Shown piece by piece: positions 19,686 to 22,268 of a DNA stretch of 40,501 bases (position 1 is its first letter; each line of letters starts with the position of its first letter). The notes beneath the pieces are model-generated. The model was not told the origin of the DNA. It saw nothing but the letters and a program-made list of their open reading frames with translations, and did no database searches. The DNA comes from Candidatus Dorea gallistercoris (GTDB taxonomy: Bacteria; Bacillota; Clostridia; Lachnospirales; Lachnospiraceae), in assembly GCA_019114065.1 (NCBI GenBank), contig DXGF01000132.1, forward strand, positions 1 through 40,501, in the 5' to 3' direction. The position numbers and the translations under genes are program-made.

Positions 19686-20699
19686 ATGGCCAACGCAGGT
19701 ATCATGGGCGCGGGAAGCTGGGGAACTGCCCTTGCGCTTCTGCTCTGCAGGAATGGACATCAGGTCACAGTCTGGTCCATCGATGAGAAGGAGGTGGAGA
19801 TGCTCTCCAAAGAGCGGGAGCATAAGAGTAAGCTGCCGGGAGTGAAACTGCCAGAGGATATGGAATTTACCACTGATCTTGAGAAAGCGGTGGCGGGCAG
19901 AGACTTTATCGTGATGGCGGTGCCATCCACCTTTACCAGAGGGACAGCCCGGAATATGGAACCTTATGTCAAGGAAGGGCAGATCATCGTGGATGTGGCC
20001 AAAGGCATCGAGGAAGATACGCTGATGACCCTTTCCCAGCAGATCGAGGAGGAGATCCCCCACGCGGATGTGGCGGTCCTGTCCGGGCCGAGCCACGCGG
20101 AGGAAGTGGGGAGGGGCCTTCCCACCACAGTCGTGATCGGCGCTAAGACTAAGGAGACCGCGGAGTATCTCCAGAGCATGTTTATGAATGAAGTGTTCCG
20201 GGTGTACACAAGCCCGGATATCCTGGGGATGGAGCTGGGGGGATCGTTGAAGAACGTGATCGCCCTGGCGGCAGGAATCGCCGATGGCATGGGATATGGG
20301 GACAATACCAAGGCAGCCCTGATCACCCGAGGGATCGCAGAGATCGCCAGACTGGGCGTGAAGATGGGCGGATCTATTGAAAGCTTTACCGGACTTACCG
20401 GGATCGGGGATCTGATCGTTACCTGCGCCAGCGTCCACAGCCGGAACCGGAAGGCGGGATATCTCATGGGCCAGGGGAAATCCATGGAAGAGGCCATGAA
20501 GGAGGTCAACATGGTGGTGGAAGGCGTGTACTCCACGAAAGCGGCGGTCAAGCTGGGCGAGAAATACGGCGTTTCCCTGCCTATCATCAACAAAGTCAAT
20601 GAAGTCCTCTTTGAAGGCAAAGACCCAAGGGAGGCGGTCAACGAACTGATGCTCCGGGACAGCAAGGCGGAGAACAGTTCCCTGACGTGGAAAGAGTAA
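19686..20699 (+). CDS. gpsA: Glycerol-3-phosphate dehydrogenase [NAD(P)+]
   Basis: Reduces dihydroxyacetone phosphate to sn-glycerol-3-phosphate, the backbone for phospholipids. The 337 residues show the N-terminal GAGSWGTALA nucleotide-binding motif (8-17), Lys189 in GGSLKNVIALAAG as the likely catalytic lysine, and GLTGIGDL with the conserved C-terminal pattern. The start has a strong AAGGAGGAGAT. It is the last gene of the DUF512-der-plsY-gpsA unit. No strong terminator separates it from spoIVA; only a weak hairpin without a T-run (20730-20749) is seen. Confidence 0.96.
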   Translation: MANAGIMGAGSWGTALALLLCRNGHQVTVWSIDEKEVEMLSKEREHKSKLPGVKLPEDMEFTTDLEKAVAGRDFIVMAVPSTFTRGTARNMEPYVKEGQIIVDVAKGIEEDTLMTLSQQIEEEIPHADVAVLSGPSHAEEVGRGLPTTVVIGAKTKETAEYLQSMFMNEVFRVYTSPDILGMELGGSLKNVIALAAGIADGMGYGDNTKAALITRGIAEIARLGVKMGGSIESFTGLTGIGDLIVTCASVHSRNRKAGYLMGQGKSMEEAMKEVNMVVEGVYSTKAAVKLGEKYGVSLPIINKVNEVLFEGKDPREAVNELMLRDSKAENSSLTWKE

Positions 20700-20753
20700 C
20701 ACTGCCGGCGGAAAACGGAAGAGTTTCACCCGCTTCAGTTCTAAAGCGGTCAG

Positions 20754-20788
20754 CCCCCTCATACACTGTTATCAGCATAACAAGGGGG
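20754..20788 (+). promoter_or_regulatory. Composite hairpin that can pair with the spoIVA ribosome site
   Basis: CCCCCT (20754-20759) can pair with AGGGGG (20783-20788), the core of the spoIVA ribosome site. An inner stem, GTTAT (20768-20772) with ATAAC (20777-20781), closes the CAGC loop. Any transcript starting upstream of 20754 could fold this structure. Confidence 0.6.
20760..20767 (+). promoter_or_regulatory. Sigma-E type -10 element for spoIVA
   Basis: CATACACT at 20760-20767 matches the sporulation sigma-E -10 consensus (CATACA-T), 28 bases before the spoIVA start. The -35 region (around 20738-20746, TTCTAA) is weak. spoIVA is a mother-cell sigma-E gene in Bacillus, so the match fits. 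Confidence 0.55.
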
Positions 20789-20795
20789 TATTAGA

Positions 20796-22268
20796 ATGAA
20801 TACGTTCCAACTCTACAAAGATATACAGGCCAGAACAAAGGGAGAGATATACATAGGAGTGGTGGGGCCGGTGCGTACCGGGAAATCCACCCTGATCAAG
20901 AGATTCATGGATGTATTGGTACTCCCGCACATGGAGGATGACCATGAGAGATCTCAGACCCGGGATGAACTGCCTCAGTCCGCATCCGGCCGGACGATCA
21001 TGACGACAGAACCAAAATTTGTGCCGAAAGAGGCGGCGAATGTCCGCCTTTCGGAGGAGACGGAGGTCAAGGTCCGGCTGATCGACTGTGTTGGATATAT
21101 GGTGGAAGGGGCGTCGGGACATATTGAGGGAGGGCAGGAGCGGCAGGTGAAGACGCCCTGGTTTGATTATGAGATCCCGTTTACCAAGGCGGCGGAGATC
21201 GGAACACGCAAGGTCATCCATGAACACGCCACCATTGGGCTCGTAGTGACCACAGACGGGAGCATCGGGGAGATCCCCCGGGAGAACTACCGAGAGGCGG
21301 AAAGCAGGACTATCCGGGAATTACAGGAGATCGGCAAGCCCTTTGTGGTTCTGGTGAATTCCCGAAAGCCGCTGGGAGAAGAGGCGGCCAGGATGGCAGA
21401 GGAGCTGGAAGAGACCTATGGAGTGAGGGCCTTGCCTGTGAACTGCGAGCAGCTCAAAGAGGAAGATATCTGCCGGATTATGGAGGCGGTGCTCTATGAG
21501 TTTCCGGTTTCCGAGGTACAGTTCTTCATTCCCAAGTGGGTGGAGATGCTTCCCAGAGACCACAAGATCAAGCAGGATCTGGTGGAACATGTGCGGCGCA
21601 TCCTGGACGGCCTGGGAGAGATCAAGGATGCGGCGGAGGGGCTTGAGACGCCGGAGAGCCTGTACATAGAAGATCTGCGGATCGAGCATATTGAGATGGA
21701 TACGGGGTGTGTGCAGATCCGGGTGCGGATTGGAGAGCAGTTCTATTATGAAACCCTCAGTGAGCTGACCGGGCTGCCCATCGCCGGCCAGTACGAACTG
21801 ATCGAGGCGATGAAGGATCTGTCAGCCTTAAAGGCGGAATATGAGGAAGTCAAAGATGCCTTTACCGCTGTGAAGATGAAGGGGTATGGGGTGGTGAGCC
21901 CCCGCAGGGAGGAGATCACTCTGGAGGATCCGGTGATCATCAAGCAGGGCAACAAGTTTGGAGTCCGCATCCACTCAGAGGCACCGTCCATCCATCTGAT
22001 CCGGGCTAATATTGAGACAGAGATCGCGCCGATCGTAGGAAATGAGCAGCAGGCCCAGGATCTGGTAGATTATATCAAGGAACGGAAAGAAAGTGAGGGC
22101 GGAATCTGGGAGACCAACATTTTTGGCAAATCTGTAGAAGAACTGGTCATGGATGGGATGCGCAATAAGATTTCCATGATTGGGGATGCCAGTCAGGAGA
22201 AGCTGCAGGATACCATGCAGAAGATCGTCAATGACAGCAACGGGGGACTGGTCTGCATTATTATCTAG
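20796..22268 (+). CDS. spoIVA: Stage IV sporulation protein A (spore coat morphogenetic ATPase)
   Basis: Polymerises on the outer forespore membrane using ATP hydrolysis and forms the base layer on which the coat assembles. The 490 residues are close to the Bacillus protein. The Walker A GPVRTGKST lies at 24-32, followed by a GTPase-like core (IDCVGYMVEGA, later VLVNSRKP), a middle region, and a C-terminal domain ending in NGGLVCIII; the hydrophobic C-terminus is the family's membrane-targeting end. Ribosome site AAGGGGGT is 7 bases before ATG 20796. This is the clearest sign in the window that the organism makes spores. Confidence 0.97.
   Translation: MNTFQLYKDIQARTKGEIYIGVVGPVRTGKSTLIKRFMDVLVLPHMEDDHERSQTRDELPQSASGRTIMTTEPKFVPKEAANVRLSEETEVKVRLIDCVGYMVEGASGHIEGGQERQVKTPWFDYEIPFTKAAEIGTRKVIHEHATIGLVVTTDGSIGEIPRENYREAESRTIRELQEIGKPFVVLVNSRKPLGEEAARMAEELEETYGVRALPVNCEQLKEEDICRIMEAVLYEFPVSEVQFFIPKWVEMLPRDHKIKQDLVEHVRRILDGLGEIKDAAEGLETPESLYIEDLRIEHIEMDTGCVQIRVRIGEQFYYETLSELTGLPIAGQYELIEAMKDLSALKAEYEEVKDAFTAVKMKGYGVVSPRREEITLEDPVIIKQGNKFGVRIHSEAPSIHLIRANIETEIAPIVGNEQQAQDLVDYIKERKESEGGIWETNIFGKSVEELVMDGMRNKISMIGDASQEKLQDTMQKIVNDSNGGLVCIII

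Follow-up and report, generated by a model that had tools for sequence, protein, structure and literature searches.

That a hairpin can hide a ribosome site on read-through RNA, and yet be unable to form on RNA made from the gene's own promoter, is an already known principle. In phage T4 the long early RNA of gene e (and likewise of soc, 49 and I-TevI) carries a hairpin hiding the ribosome site, while late promoters located inside the hairpin give rise to RNA that lacks the 5' arm and is translated, with a measured effect of about 100-fold (PMC3014915). In B. subtilis a large hairpin has been proposed to block translation of sigG on RNA reading through from PspoIIG, and this hairpin cannot arise on RNA that starts at the promoter of sigG itself (PMC5942855). 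Intrinsic (Rho-independent) terminators, consisting of a G+C-rich stem directly followed by a U-run, are a further structure of relevance.

The hairpin described here, upstream of spoIVA in Lachnospiraceae, resembles that of T4 gene e in its nested promoter and hidden ribosome site. As in gene e and sigG, the ribosome site is complementary to a segment upstream of it, and RNA from the predicted promoter, given its position, would not include the 5' arm. However, gene e belongs to a phage, depends on a phage late sigma factor and is subject to a translational block for which the relevant part of the report mentions no fused terminator; moreover, its effect was measured, whereas that at spoIVA is predicted from sequence. 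Like spoIVA, sigG is a sporulation gene with a hairpin on read-through RNA that is absent on own-promoter RNA, but it is another gene with another sigma factor, it comes from Bacilli and its stem has 20+ pairs, and the sections of the report devoted to it describe neither a fused terminator nor family-wide covariation. With intrinsic terminators most hairpin-bearing relatives share the stem and subsequent U-run; unlike these, the spoIVA hairpin encloses a promoter within the loop and has a ribosome site as part of the 3' arm, and in the window (the whole 40,501-nt stretch of Candidatus Dorea gallistercoris DNA that was analysed) the U-run is weak. Searches of an open-access library turned up no report of such a hairpin at spoIVA, nor of its fusion with a terminator at spoIVA or tepA family-wide.

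The spore coat is built on a base of SpoIVA. In the window its gene is separated by 96 nt from the co-directional growth gene gpsA, which itself follows plsY and der. The features of the locus are as follows.

19686-20699, forward strand: gpsA, NAD(P)H-dependent glycerol-3-phosphate dehydrogenase (open reading frame; NCBIfam PRK00094 family, equivalog model, E 2.3e-130)
20740-20745, forward strand: -35-like TCTAAA, 14 nt before the -10; it recurs in relatives, and its assignment to sigma-E is putative
20753-20759, forward strand: 5' arm of the outer stem, GCCCCCT, within the promoter spacer (fold; helix p=0.03; covariation with the ribosome site in relatives)
20760-20767, forward strand: sigma-E-type -10, CATACACT, within the hairpin (CATAnAnT conserved in relatives)
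20767-20772, forward strand: 5' half of the inner stem, TGTTAT (fold)
20773-20776, forward strand: apical loop CAGC with the predicted transcription start region (about 20774, from a spacing of 6-8 nt after the -10)
20777-20782, forward strand: 3' half of the inner stem, ATAACA (fold)
20783-20789, forward strand: 3' arm of the outer stem, AGGGGGT, containing the spoIVA Shine-Dalgarno sequence 7 nt before the ATG (fold; opening energies)
20789-20795, forward strand: spacer TATTAGA, a weak U-run remnant (3 T in 7)
20796-22268, forward strand: spoIVA, stage IV sporulation protein A (TIGR02836, E 1.4e-189)

Folding of positions 20750-20800 gave a single hairpin of -14.8 kcal/mol (z -2.9; equalled by 3 of 200 shuffles). 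Its outer stem comprises seven pairs, one of them G-U, between GCCCCCU (20753-20759) and AGGGGGU (20783-20789), its inner stem six pairs between UGUUAU (20767-20772) and AUAACA (20777-20782), and the 7-nt bulge (20760-20766) is made up of most of the -10. The pairing of CCCCCT (20754-20759) with AGGGGG (20783-20788) named in the original prediction was found exactly there; the accompanying GTTAT/ATAAC stem was also present, albeit one pair longer than claimed. A scan of the gpsA-spoIVA gap detected no intrinsic terminator, in agreement with the claim that none is clearly seen after gpsA, and Rfam models matched nothing in 20600-20900 at E<=1. A second inverted repeat, CCGCTT/AAGCGG (20730-20749), was rejected as a terminator: it has no U-run and is absent in the same-genus loci L082 and L083. 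This repeat overlaps the -35 region and is not conserved in the genus.

In the window and in relatives the -10 motif lies inside the hairpin. CATAnAnT is conserved at this place, TCTAAA or TCATAA stands about 14-16 nt upstream, and most relatives, hairpin-bearing or not, have one of these two elements at similar spacing. The -10 matches the sigma-E consensus CATACAnT; on the other hand the -35 is TCTAAA in the window and TCATAA in many relatives, as compared with an ATA-type -35. A sigma-E promoter has been mapped at spoIVA of C. difficile, a species whose sigma-E -35 elements carry ATA (PMC3789822). Judged by spacing, transcription would start about 7 nt after the -10, within the hairpin loop and downstream of the 5' arm, where (T/C)AGCA is conserved in relatives, and sigma-E is the factor that would probably be used. 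The expectation that a sigma-E-like RNA would be devoid of the CCCCCT arm fits these positions, in that the arm is upstream of the predicted start and RNA from 20774 is predicted to be without the hairpin.

Folding was also computed with and without the first arm, as recommended along with the original prediction. To open the ribosome site in the window, a predicted 7-12 kcal/mol was required on read-through RNA versus 3.5 kcal/mol on the short RNA. The corresponding predictions for hairpin-bearing relatives were 13-21 versus 0.5-5.6 kcal/mol, and in species where spoIVA has been relocated the cost was nearly equal for the two RNAs.

We regard it as probable that the spoIVA hairpin is an insulator with a nested promoter, which silences spoIVA on read-through RNA. 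RNA entering from gpsA would contain both arms and fold, so that the spoIVA ribosome site would be hidden, and RNA from the sigma-E-type promoter would start in the loop, lack the 5' arm and be translatable. Together with the U-run, the hairpin would also terminate much read-through RNA in most hairpin-bearing Lachnospiraceae; with the weak U-run of the window it would mainly hide the ribosome site. The gene is often situated directly behind growth genes, and a hairpin built into the gap would account for how leakage is avoided when there is no terminator besides it. Read-through is presumed to occur in growing cells, and the hairpin may influence the SpoIVA level.

From the window alone one might suspect a chance match between a C-rich promoter spacer and a G-rich ribosome site. 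The complementarity between 5' arm and ribosome site is modest (duplex p=0.07, longest-helix p=0.03), and most hairpin-bearing relatives have a longer outer stem. We compared upstream regions of spoIVA, 171 of them from Lachnospiraceae and 40 from other families, with p-values calculated against dinucleotide-shuffled upstream regions. Complementarity to the own ribosome site at p<=0.01 was found in 87 of the 171. The ribosome sites vary (e.g. CAAGGGGGU, CAGGAGGU, GAAAGGGUGU, AGCGGGGUA and AAUCGGAGGUUUU), and the upstream arms vary to match. When ribosome sites were swapped between 134 dereplicated species the pairing became weaker by 16 standard deviations (own -17.7 versus permuted -13.6 kcal/mol, sd 0.25), and none of 20,000 permutations reached the own value. 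The same test with the 29 species lacking GGGG in the ribosome site gave -15.9 versus -12.0 kcal/mol (sd 0.5).

An alignment of 34 hairpins, made from sequence only and with members selected for having the hairpin, so that it measures covariation and not prevalence, exhibited changes on both sides in eight of nine pairs. Double-changed cells numbered 40 versus 14.9 in shuffles, the observed covariation score was reached by 0 of 500, and covariation was clearly lost when the partner was slid along. The compensatory changes to be looked for in relatives thus exist, and covariation of the arms across the family is strong. Modest in the single sequence, the evidence for the hairpin is strong, indeed compelling, in the comparison of relatives. 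A chance match is contradicted at family level by this covariation, which includes ribosome sites that are not G-rich, and a C-rich spacer is missing from the relocated species whose promoter is similar; we consider a chance match very improbable. Covariation also makes the hairpin directly testable in culturable relatives.

Among the 40 regions from other families the hairpin was mostly absent, with clear cases in L185 (same order) and in L190 and L206 (other families), whose hairpins have the same layout as in Lachnospiraceae. In L170 the spoIVA ribosome site appears to be GCAAGCGGGG, an unusual Shine-Dalgarno sequence, and the 5' arm CCCCGTTGC matches it. A covariance model of the spoIVA hairpins found no convincing extra copy beyond the spoIVA loci in 1.24 Mb; its one non-spoIVA region lies upstream of a tRNA-like sequence (E 0.13).

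At least five T among the seven nucleotides after the 3' arm were counted in 51 of 61 hairpin-bearing species, versus 7 of 44 hairpin-less species and, in one relative, 24 of 487 ordinary genes. As most hairpin-bearing species thus have a U-run next to the 3' arm, the hairpin should also terminate read-through RNA there. The proposal that such RNA is silenced by its hidden ribosome site is accordingly to be modified: the predicted energetics speak for it, but in most relatives the RNA is likely also terminated. One may go further and regard the hairpin as a plain intrinsic terminator of the upstream gene in a short gap, with hiding of the ribosome site as a by-product, a reading favoured by the compact gaps, by these U-runs, which follow the stem as in intrinsic terminators, and by the loss of the hairpin where another terminator exists. 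However, the hairpins of the window and L082, followed by only 3 T in seven nucleotides, would terminate poorly, and in the window the terminator scan was negative. Moreover, the 3' arm sits on the ribosome site although any position in the gap would serve termination, and the big loops (median 17 nt) are atypical of efficient terminators. Plain termination is in our judgement unlikely, and in the window and L082 the hairpin more likely acts mainly by hiding the ribosome site.

The link between the upstream neighbour and the hairpin is suggestive. With upstream-gene orientation assigned heuristically for many loci, a hairpin by the strict criterion was present in 51 of 94 dereplicated species with a co-directional, unterminated neighbour versus 1 of 27 with a divergent or terminated one (Fisher p 1e-6). 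These counts follow inspection of upstream reading frames, by which one locus was reassigned and one dropped; uncorrected they are 50 of 93 versus 3 of 29 (p 3e-5). The helix score was 12.9 versus 6.3 in shuffles behind co-directional neighbours, and 3.6 versus 3.0 behind divergent ones. In matched sets, L083 has a terminator after gpsA and no hairpin, whereas L001 and L082 show the reverse; L022 and L019 differ in the same way, and L032 and L073 combine a terminator with the lack of a clear hairpin. No terminator was found in the window or the same-genus L082, both of which bear the hairpin. Loss of the pairing in a close relative, set beforehand as evidence against the original prediction, does occur in the same-genus L083, but fits insulation because a strong terminator follows gpsA there. 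On the other hand, context and hairpin showed no significant association in a conservative phylogenetic-pairs test (11 pairs, about 3.5 agreeing and 1.5 disagreeing). There is no hairpin despite a co-directional neighbour in L005, L034, L037 and L038, the arms are kept behind a divergent gene in L044 and L060, and at L063 a terminator and the hairpin occur together.

Many species have spoIVA apart from gpsA, with a divergent gene upstream that by eye is aroD-, aroE- or LysR-like, namely at L004, L006-L008, L010, L012-L016, L018, L020, L024, L030, L031, L033, L035, L066, L075 and L085; most of these loci combine a CATATATTCTAACAGCA promoter with a GGAAGGGG ribosome site. That L004-type loci are spoIVA paralogues was considered and rejected, as nearly all matching genomes have one spoIVA copy; they are taken to be relocated spoIVA genes.

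An inverted repeat that surrounds a promoter could also act at the DNA level, as an operator. A candidate regulator would be SpoIIID, a repressor of spoIVA in B. subtilis and C. difficile (PMC3789822) that in B. subtilis binds the spoIVA upstream region (PMC517825). The 61 hairpin-bearing species have 53 distinct 3' arms and loops of 3 to 64 nt, though, and no protein site is conserved in this manner. Substitutions facing the G-run are for the most part C to T and keep G-U pairing in 20 of 26 cases, a preference that transition bias could explain (p=0.19). As an operator would also leave the U-run and the dependence on the neighbouring gene unexplained, we give this reading hardly any credence beside an insulating hairpin.

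For other short gaps the spoIVA hairpin suggests a rule, to seek a promoter within a hairpin that contains the next ribosome site. In 1.2 Mb of one relative, genes that begin 50-90 nt downstream of a co-directional neighbour were enriched in ribosome-site complementarity (p<=0.05 in 16 of 88), whereas genes behind divergent neighbours in the same 1.2 Mb had no such enrichment (11 of 198 at p<=0.05). Pattern counts in the window's own genome were mixed (43 versus 19 for one pattern, 31 versus 27 for the other). Tentatively, and with slightly more doubt than confidence, we suggest that Lachnospiraceae recurrently use a three-in-one element (terminator of the upstream gene, promoter in the loop, next ribosome site in the 3' arm), which would insulate spoIVA, tepA and some growth genes that follow an unrelated gene at a distance of a few tens of bases.

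At tepA, a ClpP-like protease gene named by eye (L272, at G000:C59:11744-11784, minus strand; L273-L275, L278, L300 and L301), the ribosome site was seen to lie in the 3' arm of a conserved terminator-like hairpin, and in the window's genome and several relatives the 5' arm contains a CATACTAAT -10-like motif. Three growth-type genes, by eye an EF-G-like GTPase, an AI-2E-type permease and a membrane protein, likewise have their ribosome site in the 3' arm of a hairpin, which encloses a -10-like TATGAT or TATAAT (L351, G000:C157:7173-7234; L329, G000:C145:2939-2998; L335, G000:C68:14591-14635).
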